11,843 nucleotides of DNA from an uncultured Oscillospiraceae bacterium (lineage in GTDB: Bacteria > Bacillota_A > Clostridia > Oscillospirales > Oscillospiraceae), in assembly GCA_900769845.1 (NCBI GenBank), contig CAAGIF010000074.1, positions 1 to 11,843 of the forward strand, in the 5' to 3' direction. Under the pieces are notes generated by a model, which saw only the letters and a list, made by a program, of their open reading frames with translations, did not search any database and was not told the DNA's origin. The position numbers were made by a program, and so were the translations under genes. Shown piece after piece: positions 252 through 11,801 of the stretch; position 1 is the first letter of the stretch, and every line of letters starts with the position of its first letter.

Positions 252-386
252 TGGTATGCCGAAAGGGACTCGTTGCAAAACATTCCCCTTTTGGAAGGTA
301 GAATGTTTTGTATGGTGTTGCCGCTGTCGAGGCCGGCGACAAGCGAATGTCCACCGGATATTCGCATTGAACCTTTCGAGTCCCTT
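252..386 (-). repeat. tRNA-Arg-associated structured repeat with tRNA tail copy
   Basis: Bases 252-272 repeat the tRNA-Arg 3' end (436-456) with one difference, including CCA. Bases 263-272 (AAGGGACTCG) pair with 377-386 (CGAGTCCCTT), a 10 bp inverted repeat equal to the tRNA-Arg T-arm half plus flanking bases. Between them lie three hairpins: 276-285 with 301-310 (10 bp, perfect), 316-323 with 334-341 (8 bp, one wobble), and 343-352 with 356-365 (10 bp, one G-T). Linkers TTGC, TATGGTGT and GCATT and the loop GTCGAG are shared with the tRNA-Ser copies at 11389-11709, although the stems differ. No open reading frame with a convincing start lies here. The sequence period to the real tRNA is 184 bases. 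Confidence 0.8.
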
Positions 387-404
387 CCTCTCAAATATGC
401 AAAA

Positions 405-432
405 ATGCAGATACCCGTTCGGGTATCTGCAT
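405..432 (-). terminator. intrinsic terminator of tRNA-Arg
   Basis: A perfect 12 bp stem (405-416 with 421-432) with a four-base loop, starting three bases beyond the tRNA-Arg CCA in minus sense and followed by TTTTT. A transcript stopping here would not include the structured repeat at 252-386 unless it reads through. Confidence 0.8.
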
Positions 433-435
433 CTT

Positions 436-512
436 TGGTACGCCGAAAGGGACTCGAACCCCCGACCTACTGATTCGTAGTCAGTCACTCTATCCAACTG
501 AGCTATCGGCGC
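436..512 (-). tRNA. tRNA-Arg (anticodon ACG)
   Basis: Minus-strand cloverleaf of 77 bases including encoded CCA (436-438). The acceptor stem is GCGCCGA with TCGGCGT, with a G-U pair at position 1-72. The anticodon stem CTGA/TCAG encloses CTACGAA, giving anticodon ACG, normally edited to ICG to read CGU/CGC/CGA. The T-arm is GGGG-TTCGAGT-CCCT. Its 3' 21 bases recur at 252-272 as part of the downstream repeat. Confidence 0.95.
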
Positions 513-603: not shown

Positions 604-2154
604 TTAACCACGGCGCTTTTTGATTACCCAGATAAGAAGAATACTGCCCGCTGCGACAGCAAATAAGATTGCGCCAGCAGTAATCAGAACGGTCTTTTGC
701 TTTTGCTGCCGTGCTTGCTCCGCCAGACGAGCGGCTTCCTCCTCGCGGCGAAGCGCTTCCGCCCGTTCTGCTTCTTCTTTCCTTGCGGATTCCTCTGCTG
801 CCAAACGCTCCTGTTCTGCCCGCTCTGCGGCAAGGCGTTCTTCTTCAATTCGTGCTTCTTCTGCCAGTTTTTCCTGCTGGGCGTAACTGATCAGATTCTC
901 AAAAAAGTCATTCTTCGCCACATCCGGCCCCACAGTGCTGCGGTACAGGCCGTAATAACAGGGACTGTAATAAGGACAGGCAGCGGCGCTGGCCCGGTTC
1001 AGATGATACCAGCTGAAATATGCAACTTGGCTTGCGTGGCAGGGGAACCCCAATTTCTGGCTTACTTGGAAGGCGGTCATGCCGTCAAAGGATTCCAGGG
1101 GCTGATCCCAATCCATGACGATCTGATTTTCTTCGTACAGATGGAAATACGCCTTCGGCGTATCCCATATGCCGTATGCCTCTGCGGATTGGGGAAACAG
1201 CGACTGCTTATTGGAATCCTCCAGCGCCTGGGCCACTACATCTGCGCAAATGATATGCTGTGGATGACCATATTCTCCTGCAAAATCATGGGTGACGATG
1301 ACCTGGGGCTTGAATCGGCGAATTTGCTCTACCGCAAATTCCAGGATCATTTCCCGGGGTTGCCCGATTCGGCTGTACCAGCCATAGACATAATCCAGCT
1401 CGTATTTCCCGTTAAATACATATTCAGAGAAATCGTAAAACTCTGCAAATACCGGGTAGGTTTCCACACCAACTGACCATAGTCCGTTGAGCATTTCATG
1501 AACCCGGTAAGGCTCGGTGTTCTGATGGGAGGTCATGTACACCACCTGGACCTGATAGCCCAGTTCCTTGGCGTAATAGGGAAGTACGCCGGTGAAGAAA
1601 AGCTGCTCGTCGTCGCCGTGGGCAGAGAAAAGCAACAGATCGGTTTTTCCCTCCACGGGAGGATTCCACCTCTGGACAAAAGAGGGAACTTCCCCTTCGG
1701 TAAATGCATACAGCTCATTGATGGTAATGGGATTCGTACCGAAGTCCAGAGTTAGGGAAGTGGGAGCATAGCCAAACCGGGTCACAAGATCCACAAACTG
1801 ATGATAATACCCGTTTTCTCCGGCGGTGACGGATACGCCGGTTGCATTATCGGTGATGGTATACGGATTTCGGGTATGCAGGATCAGATACAAAGATCCC
1901 ATACCCTCGGAATAATCCAGCTGGATCCATGCGGTTTCACCCTCATAGAGATAGGCGGATATTCCATAGGTTTCGTTGCCGTCATAGAGCCGGTGGGTCT
2001 GGTCAAATCCGTTGGAGGCGGTTATGACATTTCGGCTGCAAATATTTATCGCCTGGGTTTCCGCTTCCTGACCCCATACGGTCGTGGGCGTACACAACGC
2101 GAAAAGGCACAGGAAAACAAAATATATGGCAACTCTTCTTCCGATGTGTTTCAT
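604..2154 (-). CDS. secreted, membrane-anchored PIG-L/LmbE-family deacetylase
   Basis: A 516-residue protein, probably hydrolysing an N-acetyl group on an amino-sugar outside the membrane; the substrate is unknown. Residues 1-28 look like a signal peptide (basic start, hydrophobic core, cleavage near VWG). Residues about 35-160 are beta-rich with an RLYDGN...WIQLDY pattern like galactose-binding (discoidin-type) modules (tentative). The PIG-L domain follows at about 170-390: the metal/catalytic motif AHGDDE at 178-183 (family norm AHPDDE, so Pro is replaced by Gly) and GEYGHPQH at 293-300 (norm GHPDH), with H300 the likely third zinc ligand. Residues 424-486 form a Glu/Ala/Arg-rich coiled coil, then a membrane helix at 488-511 and a basic tail KKRRG. 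The start is supported by AGAGGTG six bases upstream. It is transcribed away from mutY. Confidence 0.87.
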   Translation of the reverse strand: MKHIGRRVAIYFVFLCLFALCTPTTVWGQEAETQAINICSRNVITASNGFDQTHRLYDGNETYGISAYLYEGETAWIQLDYSEGMGSLYLILHTRNPYTITDNATGVSVTAGENGYYHQFVDLVTRFGYAPTSLTLDFGTNPITINELYAFTEGEVPSFVQRWNPPVEGKTDLLLFSAHGDDEQLFFTGVLPYYAKELGYQVQVVYMTSHQNTEPYRVHEMLNGLWSVGVETYPVFAEFYDFSEYVFNGKYELDYVYGWYSRIGQPREMILEFAVEQIRRFKPQVIVTHDFAGEYGHPQHIICADVVAQALEDSNKQSLFPQSAEAYGIWDTPKAYFHLYEENQIVMDWDQPLESFDGMTAFQVSQKLGFPCHASQVAYFSWYHLNRASAAACPYYSPCYYGLYRSTVGPDVAKNDFFENLISYAQQEKLAEEARIEEERLAAERAEQERLAAEESARKEEAERAEALRREEEAARLAEQARQQKQKTVLITAGAILFAVAAGSILLIWVIKKRRG

Positions 2155-5059: not shown

Positions 5060-7045
5060 ATGGCTATGAAAAAACAGGAACAATACGGAAATTCCAGCAT
5101 TTCCATGCTGAAAGGAGAGGAGCGGGTCCGCAAGCGCCCTGCGGTCATTTTCGGATCCGATGATCTGGAAGGCTGCAAGCATGCGGTTTTTGAGATCCTC
5201 TCCAATGCGATCGACGAGGCTCGGGAAGGCCACGGCGATACCATCATCGTCACCCGTTATGAGGACCTAAGTGTTGAGGTGGAGGACTTCGGACGGGGCT
5301 GTCCCGTGGACTACAACGAAAAGGAAAAGCGCTATAACTGGGAACTGGTTTTCTGCGAAATGTACGCCGGTGGCAAATACGGCGAAAACGGCGAAAACTA
5401 CGAGTACAGCCTGGGTCTGAACGGCTTGGGTTCCTGCGCCACCCAGTATGCCTCTGAGTTTTTTGACGCAACCATCCGCCGGGACGGCTTCCGCTATGAT
5501 CTGCATTTTGAAAAGGGCAGAAACAAGGGCGGATTGAAGAAAGAACCCACAGATCGGGGCCGTAAGACCGGCTCCTGCTTCCATTGGCGTCCCGACCGGC
5601 AGGTCTTCACGGATATCAATATCCCCGTGGAATACTACCGGGATGTGCTGCGCCGCCAGGCAGTTGTGAACAAGGGAATCACCTTCAAATTCCGCAACCA
5701 GGTGGGTAAGAAGTTTGAGGAAGAGGAATTCTGCTACGAAAACGGCATCAAGCAGTATATTGAGGAACTGGTGGGGGACAATGCCTTTACCATGCCGGTT
5801 TTCTGGGAGACGGAGCGCCGTGGACGGGATGCGGAAAACCGCCCGGAAATGAAGTTGAAGATCACGGTGTCCTTCTGCATGTCCAAGCAGGTCAGCCACA
5901 CAGAGTATTACCACAACTCCTCCTGGCTGGAGTACGGCGGTAGCCCCGACCGGGCAGTTCGTTCCGGTTTCACCTCAGCTTTCGACAAATACCTCCGGGA
6001 TACCAACAAATATACCAAGAACGAGAGCAAGATCATCTACCAGGATATTCAGGATTCTCTGGTATTGGTGACCAACTGCTTCTCCACCATCGGCTGCTTT
6101 GAAAACCAGACTAAGAAATCTGTCAACTCCAAGTTTACTCAGGAAGCCATGACCGCCTTCTTTAAAGAACAGCTGCAGGTCTGGTTCATTGAGAACAAGC
6201 AGGAGGCGGACCGGGCGGCGGAACAGATCCTTATCAACAAGCGGGCCCGGGAATCTGCGGAGAAGACAAAGAGCAATATTAAGAAAAATCTTTCTGCCAA
6301 GGTGGATATTGCCAACCGGGTGCAGAAGTTTGTGGATTGCCGCAGCAAGGATACTGCGGTCCGGGAGCTTTACATCGTGGAGGGTGACTCCGCATTGGGC
6401 AGCGTTAAGCTTTCCCGTGACGCGGAGTTCCAGGGTATTATGCCTGTTCGCGGTAAGATCCTGAACTGCCTGAAGGCGGATTACAACAAAATTTTCGCAT
6501 CCCCTATTATTACGGATCTGATGAAGGTGCTGGGCTGCGGCGTGGAGGTCCAGGAAAAAAAGGCCAAGGAGCTTTCTTCCTTTGACATCGACAACCTGCG
6601 GTGGAATAAAGTGGTCATCTGTACCGACGCGGACTATGACGGCTTCCAGATCCGGACACTGATCCTTACCATGATCTACCGGCTGTGTCCCACCCTGATC
6701 CGGGACGGCTATGTGTATATTGCAGAGTCCCCGCTGTTTGAGATCACCTATAAGGACAAGACCTGGTTTGCCTATACCGAGGGAGAAAAAACAAAAATCC
6801 TGAAGGAATTGGAAGGCAAGCATGTGAAGATCCAGCGCTCCAAGGGTCTCGGTGAGAACGATCCCGAAATGATGTGGATGACCACCATGAACCCCGGAAC
6901 CCGGCGGCTCATTAAAGTTATGCCCGAGGATGCGGAGCGGACTGCCCATTATTTTGATGTGCTGTTGGGTGACGCTCTGCAGGAGCGGAAGAATTTTATT
7001 GCGGAAAACGGCGCCAAGTATTTGGATTTGGCGGACATTTCCTAA
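5060..7045 (+). CDS. parE: divergent type IIA DNA topoisomerase, subunit B (ParE/GyrB-like)
   Basis: ATPase and TOPRIM subunit of a DNA gyrase/topoisomerase IV type enzyme, 661 residues. The GHKL ATPase domain starts at about 20: EILSNAIDE (Glu45, Asn49, Asp52) is the N-box. The next box reads DFGRGCPV at 76-83 (usual DNGRGIPV) and the glycine-rich lid reads GLNGLGS at 119-125 (usual GLHGVGA). QTK at 350-352 is the ATP-sensing loop. TOPRIM follows: EGDSALG at 441-447 (usual EGDSAGG) and TDADYDG at 522-528 (usual TDADVDG), with metal ligands Glu441, Asp523 and Asp525 kept, and KGLGE near 595 closes the domain. All catalytic acids are present, so it should be active. It lies 12 bases ahead of its partner subunit. 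The symbol is provisional: sequence alone does not separate ParE from GyrB for this divergent type. Confidence 0.9.
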   Translation: MAMKKQEQYGNSSISMLKGEERVRKRPAVIFGSDDLEGCKHAVFEILSNAIDEAREGHGDTIIVTRYEDLSVEVEDFGRGCPVDYNEKEKRYNWELVFCEMYAGGKYGENGENYEYSLGLNGLGSCATQYASEFFDATIRRDGFRYDLHFEKGRNKGGLKKEPTDRGRKTGSCFHWRPDRQVFTDINIPVEYYRDVLRRQAVVNKGITFKFRNQVGKKFEEEEFCYENGIKQYIEELVGDNAFTMPVFWETERRGRDAENRPEMKLKITVSFCMSKQVSHTEYYHNSSWLEYGGSPDRAVRSGFTSAFDKYLRDTNKYTKNESKIIYQDIQDSLVLVTNCFSTIGCFENQTKKSVNSKFTQEAMTAFFKEQLQVWFIENKQEADRAAEQILINKRARESAEKTKSNIKKNLSAKVDIANRVQKFVDCRSKDTAVRELYIVEGDSALGSVKLSRDAEFQGIMPVRGKILNCLKADYNKIFASPIITDLMKVLGCGVEVQEKKAKELSSFDIDNLRWNKVVICTDADYDGFQIRTLILTMIYRLCPTLIRDGYVYIAESPLFEITYKDKTWFAYTEGEKTKILKELEGKHVKIQRSKGLGENDPEMMWMTTMNPGTRRLIKVMPEDAERTAHYFDVLLGDALQERKNFIAENGAKYLDLADIS

Positions 7046-9325: not shown

Positions 9326-10189
9326 ATGCAAAAGATTTGGGAAATGTGCAAATGGGTTGTTGCTACCATTGTGGGAAGCGCAATCTTCGCTCTGGGATTT
9401 GCATTGTTTTTGCAGCCCAATGACATGAATGCCGGCGGTATTTCCGGTCTGGCAATGATCATTGTGGAGATATTTGGAATCGGCTCCGTGGGTCTGTTTT
9501 CGATTCTTATCAATCTTCCGCTGTTTCTCCTTGGCGGATTAAAAATTGGCAGACGGTTCTTTGCGGGTTCTCTGCTGGGCATGGTGCTTAGCTCGGTGCT
9601 TATCGATACCTTTGCACAAGTGGCCTTTATTGTGGTGGATCCATTGATTGGCGCGCTGTACGGCGGAGTGCTGTGCGGCTTGGGTCTGGGAATGGTGTTT
9701 ATTTGCGGAACTTCCACCGGCGGTTCGGATATTTTGGTTCGGCTGCTGAAGCTCCGTTATCGGAACGTGCCCATCGGTCAGATTTCCATGTACTTTGACC
9801 TGTTCGTGGTCTTGCTGACCGGTCTTGTATTCGGTGATATTGCCAAAGCTTTGTATACCGGCATCGCCGTCTTTGTTACCGGCCAGGTGCTGGATGCGGT
9901 GGTTTACCGCTTTGACTACTCCAAGGTTGCCCTGATCATCACATCCAAGCATGAAGAGGTTGCTCACGCCATCGACATAAAACTGGAACGGGGCGCAACA
10001 TACCTGCATGCTGAGGGCAGCTACAGCCACAAGGAAATGAAGGTGGTTCTCGCCGCTGTGAAAAAGCAGCAGGTGGCAGAACTGAAGGAATTGATTATGG
10101 AAATCGATCCCGCTGCTTTTGTAATTGTGCAGGAGGCCCACCAGGTGCTTGGTGACGGCTTCTCCCGGTATACCAAGGACTCCCTGTAA
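9326..10189 (+). CDS. YitT-family integral membrane protein
   Basis: A 287-residue member of the YitT family, whose function is poorly defined. About five to six hydrophobic helices span residues 10-190 (near 10-30, 52-72, 78-100, 106-128, 155-170 and 172-190). The family-typical motifs NAGGISG (35-41) and STGGSDIL (130-137) sit at helix ends. A cytoplasmic C-terminal DUF2179 domain covers about 200-279, ending in the usual GDGF. GGAGGG lies six bases before the ATG. The 21-base gap from the topoisomerase A subunit and the absence of a terminator suggest cotranscription, though nothing ties its role to DNA topology. Confidence 0.93.
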   Translation: MQKIWEMCKWVVATIVGSAIFALGFALFLQPNDMNAGGISGLAMIIVEIFGIGSVGLFSILINLPLFLLGGLKIGRRFFAGSLLGMVLSSVLIDTFAQVAFIVVDPLIGALYGGVLCGLGLGMVFICGTSTGGSDILVRLLKLRYRNVPIGQISMYFDLFVVLLTGLVFGDIAKALYTGIAVFVTGQVLDAVVYRFDYSKVALIITSKHEEVAHAIDIKLERGATYLHAEGSYSHKEMKVVLAAVKKQQVAELKELIMEIDPAAFVIVQEAHQVLGDGFSRYTKDSL

Positions 10190-10202
10190 AGGAGGAGATG
10201 CT

Positions 10203-11300
10203 ATGAAACGGCGGATCTTATGTCTGGCAACGGCAGTCATTCTGCTGCTGGCAGGCTGCAGCTGGATGGACGGCAGCTATGTTTCTGTTACTCCCCACCA
10301 GGCGCAGATGTCGGGGAATCAATCGGACCGTATTTCCGCGTCCAATTACCTGCAGCTGCGTAATGCCCTGGTCGCGCTGATCCAGACGGGAACAGAAAGC
10401 GCGGTGATTCATGTGGCGGAGTATGATCAGGACCTGATCAGCAACGCCATGGAGTCTGCGGTCGATTATATCTGCCATACCCATCCTCTGGGTGCTTATG
10501 CCGTGGAGTCGTTGGATTATGAGATCGGCTCTGCCGGCGGTCAGCCAGCGGTATCTATCGAGATATCCTATATTCACGGGAGATCGGAAATCCGAAAGAT
10601 ACAGCAGGTTTCCGACATGGATGCCGTGGAGGCGGCGATTGCCAAGGCGCTGCAGCAGTGCGACGAGGGTATCGTCCTGCAGGTCAGACAGTATACCCGC
10701 AGAGATCTTGTGCAGTATGTGGAGGATTTTGCAGAAGAGAATCCTAATCTGATCATGGAGACTCCGCAGGTTGCCGTGGGACTGTATCCGGAATCGGGAT
10801 CCAACCGGATTCTGGAGATCAAATTCACCTATGAAACCAGCAGAGATTCCCTGCGCTCCATGCAGTACGAGGTTGCCCGCGTGTTTGCCTCTGCGTCTTT
10901 GTACATAAATCAAAATGATCCCCAGATCCAGAAATACACCCAACTTTACAATTTTTTAATGGAGCGTTTTGACTATCAGTTTCAGACTTCCATTACACCG
11001 TCCTACAGCCTGCTCAATCATGGTGTTGGCGACGCAAAGGCATTTGCAGAAGTATATTCTGCTATGTGCCGACAGGCTGGGCTGGATTGCCGGGTCATAT
11101 CCGGCACCCGTTCCGGTGAGGCCTGGTACTGGAATCTGATCTGTGACGAGGGGGTCTATTACCATGTGGATCTGCTGCAAAGCTATCAATCCGGTAGATT
11201 TACCAGACTCATGGATTGGGATATGCAGAATTATGTCTGGGACTATTCCGCTTATCCCCAGGCCATAATTATCACGGAAGAACCCGTACCAACAGAATAA
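10203..11300 (+). CDS. lipoprotein with degenerate transglutaminase-like domain
   Basis: A 365-residue exported lipoprotein. The start at 10203 is chosen because AAGGAGG lies upstream at a good distance and because it opens a lipoprotein signal: KRR, a hydrophobic core, and lipobox LAGC with acylated Cys19. An in-frame ATG 78 bases earlier would fall inside the preceding gene. Residues 40-240 hold two similar alpha/beta segments without a family I recognise. Residues about 245-355 resemble a transglutaminase/protease-like fold: GVGDAKAFAEVY where active members have G-x-G-x-C-x-G-Y-A, then SGEAWYWN where they have HAWN, then YYHVDLL with the usual Asp. The Cys position is Ala278 and the His position Glu306, so it is predicted to be catalytically inactive, perhaps a binding domain. 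It is last in the operon, 13 bases after the YitT gene. Confidence 0.85.
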   Translation: MKRRILCLATAVILLLAGCSWMDGSYVSVTPHQAQMSGNQSDRISASNYLQLRNALVALIQTGTESAVIHVAEYDQDLISNAMESAVDYICHTHPLGAYAVESLDYEIGSAGGQPAVSIEISYIHGRSEIRKIQQVSDMDAVEAAIAKALQQCDEGIVLQVRQYTRRDLVQYVEDFAEENPNLIMETPQVAVGLYPESGSNRILEIKFTYETSRDSLRSMQYEVARVFASASLYINQNDPQIQKYTQLYNFLMERFDYQFQTSITPSYSLLNHGVGDAKAFAEVYSAMCRQAGLDCRVISGTRSGEAWYWNLICDEGVYYHVDLLQSYQSGRFTRLMDWDMQNYVWDYSAYPQAIIITEEPVPTE

Positions 11301-11354: not shown

Positions 11355-11386
11355 AAACACCAATACCCGGTTGGGTATTGGTGTTT
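11355..11386 (-). terminator. distal terminator of the tRNA-Ser repeat array
   Basis: A perfect 14 bp stem (11355-11368 with 11373-11386) with a four-base loop. In minus sense it starts three bases beyond the most distal tRNA-Ser tail copy (CCA at 11389-11391) and ends in GTTTTCTC. Its stem sequence differs from the two other terminators of the array and may be the original tRNA-Ser terminator (inference). Confidence 0.75.
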
Positions 11387-11388
11387 CA

Positions 11389-11548
11389 TGGCGGAGTGAG
11401 AGGGATTTGATTGCCATTCTGCGGTGCAGAATGTATGGTGTCGTTCCCGTCGAGCCGGGAACGAGCAACCGTCCCCCGGACGGTTGCATTTAATGGGTTC
11501 AAATCCCCTGTTATATGAAAAAACCACACTCCGAAAGGGTGTGGTTTT
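11389..11548 (-). repeat. tRNA-Ser-associated structured repeat, distal copy
   Basis: A 160-base unit. It begins (plus coordinates) with a copy of the tRNA-Ser 3' end including CCA (11389-11410). GGGATTTGA (11402-11410) pairs with TCAAATCCC (11499-11507), enclosing three hairpins: 11415-11422 with 11426-11433 (8 bp), 11441-11449 with 11456-11464 (9 bp) and 11465-11474 with 11478-11487 (10 bp), all perfect. Bases 11495-11507 are the exact T-arm/T-loop sequence of tRNA-Ser in the opposite orientation. Then come CTGTTATATG and a terminator hairpin. Its core is nearly identical to the proximal copy, differing at two positions between the tail copy and TTATATG. No coding potential is apparent. Confidence 0.9.
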
Positions 11549-11549
11549 T
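11519..11549 (-). terminator. middle terminator of the tRNA-Ser repeat array
   Basis: A hairpin with arms AAAAACCACAC and GTGTGGTTTTT plus inner pairs. In minus sense it abuts the tail copy of the proximal repeat unit and is followed by TTTTTTC. It resembles the proximal terminator (shared CCACAC/GTGTGG) but differs in loop and flanking pairs. Confidence 0.75.
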
Positions 11550-11709
11550 GGCGGAGTGAGAGGGATTTGATTGCCATTCTGCGGTGCAGAATGTAAGGTG
11601 TCGTTCCCGTCGAGCCGGGAACGAGCAACCGTCCCCCGGACGGTTGCATTTAATGGGTTCAAATCCCTTGTTATATGAAAATAACCACACCCCGGAAGGG
11701 TGTGGTTAT
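11549..11709 (-). repeat. tRNA-Ser-associated structured repeat, proximal copy
   Basis: The second tandem unit (161 bases) directly behind tRNA-Ser in minus sense. It repeats the tRNA-Ser tail with CCA (11549-11570), the closing inverted repeat (11562-11570 with 11659-11667), and hairpins at 11575-11593, 11601-11624 and 11625-11647. The hairpins are identical to those of the distal copy. The near identity points to recent tandem duplication or ongoing homogenisation, while the terminator within each unit has already diverged. Confidence 0.9.
11681..11709 (-). terminator. intrinsic terminator of tRNA-Ser
   Basis: A perfect 12-13 bp stem, ATAACCACACCC (11681-11692) with GGGTGTGGTTAT (11698-11709), loop five bases, followed in minus sense by TTTTC. 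It touches the encoded CCA of tRNA-Ser. Normal transcripts should stop here, before the repeat units. Confidence 0.8.
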
Positions 11710-11801
11710 TGGCGGAGTGAGAGGGATTTGAACCCTCGCGCGCTTTTTAGACGCCTACTCCCTTAGCAGGGGAGCCCCTTCGGCCACTTGGGTATCACTC
11801 C
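11710..11801 (-). tRNA. tRNA-Ser (anticodon GCT)
   Basis: A minus-strand class II tRNA of 92 bases with encoded CCA (11710-11712). The acceptor stem GGAGTGA/TCACTCC is perfect and the discriminator is G, as expected for serine. The anticodon stem CTCCC/GGGAG encloses CTGCTAA, giving anticodon GCT for AGC/AGU codons. A long variable arm is present (TAGGCGTC...GCGCGC region). The T-arm is GAGGG-TTCAAAT-CCCTC, and its sequence is copied in both orientations in the two repeat units behind it. Confidence 0.96.

Follow-up and report, generated by a model that had tools for sequence, protein, structure and literature searches.

Repeat units behind tRNA genes in Clostridia share the layout of Escherichia coli TLRs and carry an unrelated hairpin core

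The tRNA-linked repeats (TLRs) of Escherichia coli, including the 178-bp repeats at tyrT, have been known since 1978. As far as the accessible source text describes them, they lie behind tRNA or 5S genes with one to five units per locus, and the 3′ end of a unit is a repeat of the 3′ end of the upstream gene. Egan and Landy 1978 and Rudd 1999 are cited for these repeats in the accessible part of PMC8144298, where Bosl and Kersten 1991/1994 are cited as well; the paper states that no function of TLRs was known before the work on the sRNAs RrA, RrB and RrF. These are reported there as transcribed by read-through and processed; for RrB, the processed read-through transcript binds Hfq and CsrA (PMC8144298).

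We analyzed a stretch of 11,843 nucleotides from an uncultured Oscillospiraceae bacterium (the window; contig CAAGIF010000074.1), for which an original prediction had described two tandem units behind a tRNA-Ser gene and had known of no described family with their form. A described kind of this form does exist: both the E. coli TLRs and the Rfam family RtT (RF00391) have this layout.

Three units behind two tRNA genes

Behind tRNA-Ser(GCT), which is encoded on the minus strand, come a terminator-like hairpin and then two units of 160 and 161 nt (Table 1). The predicted parts, namely an inverted T-arm, three hairpins, a rebuilt T-half, the acceptor strand and CCA, were all found in both units, and the hairpins of 10, 9 and 8 bp are Watson–Crick paired throughout. 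The direct copies comprise two stretches of 141 nt with 96% identity at a spacing of 160; once the 3′ end of tRNA-Ser itself is included, the spacings are 160 and 161. In the predicted RNA fold of unit A (−58.2 kcal/mol, z −6.9, equaled by none of 200 shuffles), all three hairpins lie within a closing stem GGGATTTGA/TCAAATCCC of 10 bp in total and the acceptor strand stays unpaired, as in the proposed structure with its single-stranded tRNA-like tail. Folded as DNA, the two strands of unit A reach z −6.6 and −6.7. As had been argued, the units are not a tRNA pseudogene, and besides tRNA no Rfam family reaches its gathering score in the window. The terminator proposed after each unit is present as a hairpin, by inspection and inverted repeats; a consensus terminator scan, however, flagged none of the terminator-like hairpins in the window, probably owing to A-tracts that base-pair with the T-tracts of these hairpins, and the label "terminator" is therefore based on shape and position. 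The last of these hairpins (11355..11386) differs in sequence and is perhaps the native one.

Table 1. Coordinates of the units and their tRNA genes in the window.
Feature	Position	Strand	Basis
Last terminator-like hairpin, different sequence	11355..11386	-	inverted repeat
Unit B rebuilt T-half + acceptor strand + CCA	11389..11410	-	sequence
Unit B hairpin 3	11415..11433	-	pair count
Unit B hairpin 2	11441..11464	-	pair count
Unit B hairpin 1	11465..11487	-	pair count
Unit B inverted T-arm	11495..11507	-	inverted repeat (exact copies at both units: 13-14 nt)
Terminator-like hairpin after unit A	11519..11548	-	sequence; repeat search
Unit A rebuilt T-half + acceptor strand + CCA	11549..11570	-	sequence, match to tRNA
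Unit A hairpin 3, 8 bp	11575..11593	-	fold + pair count
Unit A hairpin 2, 9 bp	11601..11624	-	fold + pair count
Unit A hairpin 1, 10 bp	11625..11647	-	fold + pair count
Unit A inverted T-arm	11655..11668	-	exact 14-nt inverted repeat
Terminator-like hairpin after tRNA-Ser	11680..11709	-	inverted repeat; consensus terminator scan negative
tRNA-Ser(GCT), arm donor	11710..11801	-	ARAGORN; RF00005
Third unit rebuilt T-half + acceptor strand + CCA of tRNA-Arg, one mismatch	252..272	-	repeat search, tRNA match
Third unit hairpin 3, imperfect	277..308	-	fold, pair count
Third unit hairpin 2, imperfect	319..342	-	alignment
Third unit hairpin 1, one mismatch	343..365	-	fold, alignment, pair count
Third unit inverted T-half of tRNA-Arg	375..386	-	inverted repeat
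Terminator-like hairpin after tRNA-Arg	400..435	-	inverted repeat
tRNA-Arg(ACG), arm donor for third unit	436..512	-	ARAGORN

The original prediction missed a diverged third unit in the same window, at 252-400 behind tRNA-Arg(ACG). It has the part order of the Ser units and shares their core, and its arms fit tRNA-Arg and not tRNA-Ser. When the rebuilt end is scored against the own tRNA, Ser unit A matches at 22 of 23 positions and the Arg unit at 20 of 23. Compared with the Ser units, 6 of the 19 base pairs in hairpins 1 and 2 of the third unit have both partners exchanged, and 96.5% of the cells pair, in an alignment of three rows of which two are nearly alike. When the third unit is folded as RNA (z −5.4), the closing stem and hairpins 1 and 3 are retained, while hairpin 2 does not form as drawn.

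Local arms and exchangeable cores among relatives

The original prediction had proposed a covariance-model search for copies beside tRNA genes, and such copies were found. Starting from an anchor genome (that of L042, titled Oscillospiraceae) that was picked via the window protein at 5060-7045 (68% identity), a model of the core (hairpin 1, hairpin 2 and ACACCATACA; E up to 0.01) matched in 14 of 200 genomes of the anchor's family, with a maximum of nine matches per genome, some of which cover hairpin 1 only (L105, L106). A tRNA gene (Arg, Gln, Gly, Pro, Val, Met, Leu and others) is present in 22 of the 30 fetched, partly overlapping loci; ARAGORN found none in the other eight, some of which by inspection contain tRNA remnants or lie near a contig end, and in L118 the tRNA is cut. 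In 18 units, 55-72 nt separate the core from the end of the tRNA. Genome G202 was sampled by fetching 30 loci from 45 tRNA hits (32 distinct tRNA genes). Of its 20 tRNA genes with at least 150 nt of free downstream sequence, nine are followed by a rebuilt end 10 nt or longer, and six of these nine also have an inverted copy 8 nt or longer. Homologous neighbor genes (28-36% identity) recur beside tRNA genes in the window (10125-11300), L101, L213 and L105.

The hairpin 1 palindrome occurs 39 times in seven of eight genomes (reversed control: 0). Thirteen loci chosen from 30 fetched include tRNA-Pro, -Leu, -Gly, -Lys and -Ser as well as a 5S gene, partly with other cores; some of the 13 show no RNA gene, often near contig ends. 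At the single 5S locus, L151, an RF00001 match at 1-84 is followed by a terminator-like hairpin, the hairpin 1 palindrome and a repeat of the 5S end with its hairpin, and the duplicated parts align across about 80 columns with one 6-nt gap. A pattern scan of the named genomes' contigs returned 84 stretches: L010 alone adjoins a tRNA, Arg(CCT), with a rebuilt 3′ end; L037 and L078 have a tRNA within 600 nt and no rebuilt end in the stretch shown, and the other 81 are without tRNA. Across the wider order, the core model matched in 8 of 394 genomes, three of them found previously; among the new loci L186-L190, all except L186 show hairpin 1 and an inverted-arm-like or rebuilt end by inspection. 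Across the wider class it matched in 2 of 391 genomes, once at a plain terminator-like hairpin (L195) and once at nothing recognizable (L196). Searches across more than 40 genomes used stricter filters, at which weak matches are lost. Searching phages with the units gave no match, the plasmid search one match of 26 nt at chance level, and a pattern scan of viral contigs three hits with a tRNA in none of the three loci. The primary sequence of hairpin 1 is conserved. The units were found through it (around CCGGTGG), so that how often it occurs is not counted here without bias; two units of the census, L197 and L221, lack it by inspection. Hairpin 2 was not alignable across units in one register, and hairpin 3 is by inspection absent from L094, L095, L096, L100 and L109.

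For the arms, we compared each unit with its own tRNA in 18 of the 36 collected units, the others being without an intact tRNA within 160 nt upstream. The inverted arm matches the own tRNA at a mean of 11.94 of 13 positions versus 10.01 after permutation, and the rebuilt end at 19.0 of 23 versus 13.6 (0 of 10,000 permutations in both cases). Single arms of other tRNAs at times score equally (maximum 13/13 and 21/23) because T-arms resemble one another. The cores behave differently: core identity is 0.77 within the same genome behind different tRNAs (24 pairs) and 0.666 behind the same tRNA in different genomes (16 pairs), a third value alongside these being 0.656. Among the 23 of 36 units used here (excluded were eight tandem or near-duplicate copies, L093, L095, L096 and L102, each alone in its genome, and the decayed L143), core sequence follows the genome label (0 of 5,000 permutations) and not the tRNA (p 0.497). 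As the arms fit the local tRNA and the cores track the genome, the arms are local and the cores exchangeable.

The left border of the rebuilt end is constant and lies inside the T-loop. CCA is absent from at least five of the 18 units whose upstream tRNA is intact (L097, L098, L100, L107 and L111); L117, which is cut by its contig edge, is not part of this count. In L097 and L101, the inverted copy extends through the acceptor and TGG up to the terminator; over all 18 units, this extension has a mean own score of 4.67 versus 3.77 (4 of 10,000 permutations), with a score of at least 5 in nine units versus 18.7% of shuffles, the acceptor part being absent from many units. Several loci contain the gene's 3′ end together with a similar terminator duplicated as direct repeats. 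By inspection, consecutive units at L201 (tRNA-Val) have different core types between like arms, and the array at L211/L115 (G202, tRNA-Gly(CCC)) is inverted relative to its tRNA, which could be the result of one recombination event.

Further arrangements were observed at individual loci. Downstream of the L098 unit at 1501-1560 (minus strand) lie six more units of 106-109 nt with a different interior, which keep the hairpin-3 module, the rebuilt T-half and the acceptor and have no CCA. L144 (G109) has four tandem units about 106 nt apart, which follow a tRNA-like 3′ end and have another core type, GGGC-hairpin-hp1-GCCC. The spacer between the two units of L122 contains an inverted T-half-like sequence, GCGGGACTCGAATG; it is a poor match for the tRNA-Leu at this locus and looks like an inserted partial unit from another tRNA. 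L107, L123 and L141 (G140) carry a further dispersed repeat resembling AATTTCGCAC / CGTTACTGCCC within or next to units.

Proposed origin of the frame and alternative readings

Selection on RNA would be expected to leave more G.T than A.C among hairpin mismatches, and no such excess was found: of 717 pairs in distinct hairpins, 692 are Watson–Crick, 10 G.T, 9 A.C and 6 other. At the same loci, tRNA stems have 35 G.T and 1 A.C in 216 pairs, and terminators 3 G.T and 0 A.C in 276 pairs. As the terminators are equally perfect, the comparison is a hint and not proof, and it depends on delimitation, a looser hairpin 3 giving 10 G.T and 16 A.C in 783 pairs. Judged from the sequences, these counts are suggestive of hairpins that may be kept palindromic mainly at the DNA level.

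Unit-free sites were found in both groups of bacteria. L153 has a tRNA-Arg(ACG) and a homologous upstream gene (51% identity) with no unit within 330 nt after the tRNA, and L213 has a tRNA-Gly(GCC) without a unit where L101, with homologous neighbors in matching layout (36% identity), has one; both are comparisons between species, in which gain and loss look alike. Synteny at the Leu locus yielded no informative unit-free site. In E. coli SK1144, the flank that lies beyond the tyrT unit of K-12 directly adjoins the tRNA, a precise unit-free site; a K-12 tyrT-like unit is present in 1,921 of 5,426 E. coli genomes, in 1,920 of them at 80% or more of the unit length. These sites (L153, L213, SK1144), the mixed cores of L201 and the inverted L211 were counted in favor of an origin at the DNA level.

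The reading to which we give an even chance is that in units of the TLR kind the frame is made by fold-back copying of the tRNA 3′ end at the terminator, with cores spreading between loci. The frame consists of the 3′ end of the host tRNA or 5S gene, present twice as direct repeats, and an inverted T-half after the first terminator; the core is a set of near-perfect hairpins that is exchangeable inside this local frame. We infer that copying folds back at the terminator palindrome by strand switching while the heavily transcribed gene is replicated, that cores spread among the frames of one genome by ectopic conversion or by insertion between arms, and that the palindromes are upheld mainly as DNA. 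Any RNA from the units would arise by read-through beyond the first terminator. The inverted copies of L097 and L101 extend to the terminator and therefore fit fold-back at this point. Against it, many units lack the acceptor part in their inverted copy, and random strand switching would seem less site-specific than a rebuilt end that always starts in the T-loop; moreover, an idle palindrome would not need the conserved sequence of hairpin 1.

That constant left border counts in favor of a site-specific recombinase, and T-loops are common integrase sites. The original prediction had offered a small mobile DNA using the T-arm, and mini-elements of this kind, with the T-arm as attachment site and perhaps moving as folded single-stranded DNA like an integron cassette, would also fit the arrays of L201 and L098, in which like repeats flank different cores in the manner of cassettes. 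Local arms and cores shared within a genome bring this idea close to the evidence, yet both arms would have to be remade at each new tRNA, and Y1 transposases, the one mover tested, were unmatched in 7 of 14 carriers; we consider it improbable. Somewhat better placed, although still unlikely, is an sRNA comparable to E. coli RrA/RrB/RrF behind 5S genes: RrB is a processed read-through product that binds Hfq and CsrA according to the accessible part of PMC8144298, the predicted RNA folds are strong (z −6.9 and −5.4) and the stems covary. The stems nevertheless show no wobble excess, the core hairpins differ in sequence and number, the array of L211 is inverted, and at least 5 of 18 units have no CCA end. 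The proposed RNA that mimics tRNA and engages RNase P/Z, CCA-adding enzyme, synthetase or EF-Tu draws on the acceptor tail with CCA, which is predicted to be single-stranded; it is weakened to the point of being very improbable because at least 5 of 18 ends are CCA-less, a like unit lies behind a 5S rRNA gene (L151) and every unit is positioned beyond a terminator-like hairpin.

Beyond fold-back copying as such, a general process in Gammaproteobacteria and Clostridia may be envisaged, in which a locally templated frame behind tRNA and 5S genes, made of the gene's 3′ end in direct and inverted copy, receives genome-specific hairpin cassettes and a putative dedicated machinery rewrites the arms per site; we put this forward tentatively, as a possibility with the odds against it. 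Local arms combined with genome-specific cores are not produced by ordinary transposition with a fixed end sequence. If true, "frame and cassette" would be a class of repeat in which each move to a new site rewrites the target arms.

Comparison with known systems

REP elements are short palindromes scattered between genes and moved by Y1 (RAYT) transposases. The Clostridia units likewise contain short palindromes dispersed between genes, but they are tied to RNA genes, have gene-specific arms and show no Y1 link: the Y1 transposase family PF01797 was matched in 7 of 14 carriers and in 82 of 200 genomes overall, and no match was obtained in the other seven carriers, including five of the six richest in hits (G202, G109, G140, G142, G145; genomes may be incomplete). 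A Y1 transposase as mover was rejected, as half of the carriers have no match.

RtT (RF00391) is closer. The closing stem of its consensus, GGGGAAGGAU/AUCCUUCCCC, pairs an inverted T-half with a rebuilt T-half and has hairpins inside it, and the model's consensus also contains an unpaired CCACCACCA tail, CCA included. RF00391 had no match at gathering (45 bits) in the window and none at E up to 1 in eight loci, while three E. coli K-12 units score 112-138 bits; the Clostridia units therefore have the TLR layout without being members of RF00391. RrA, RrB and RrF, as described in the accessible part of PMC8144298, are units that follow a 5S gene, rebuild its end and are flanked by a terminator on either side, and L151 is alike. 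They differ in having no sequence relation to the Clostridia units by eye. Among titles and abstract beginnings, with subscription journals mostly outside the scope, no such units were found in the literature for Clostridia.

In E. coli, where the regions were hand-picked and hence form no census, a rebuilt end of at least 13 nt was found at 8 of 30 RNA genes: tyrT, tyrV, argQ, argZ, argV, proK, lysV and rrfB. By inspection, like cores stand behind different tRNAs, and at proK and lysV the terminator is also duplicated, as in the Clostridia set. Taken singly, the inverted arm is significant at tyrV alone (6 of 2,000 shuffles); at the remaining seven loci it is weak or lacking (148 to 1,916 of 2,000); in all five tyr and arg units, its best place is at +57 to +62. 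The Clostridia core is unrelated, both by eye and by covariance model. The TLR traits recur in Clostridia as one to several tandem units at several RNA genes per genome (two and one in the window), and at one locus (L151) behind a 5S rRNA gene. A set from a second phylum whose core is unrelated makes it possible to tell the constant traits, local arms and the position after the terminator, from the variable one, the core sequence, and moves the question from the RNA of the core to the making of the frame. The two sets may derive either from shared descent or from separate origins; by their anatomy, as read from sequence, the Clostridia units are of the TLR kind, with a new and unrelated core.
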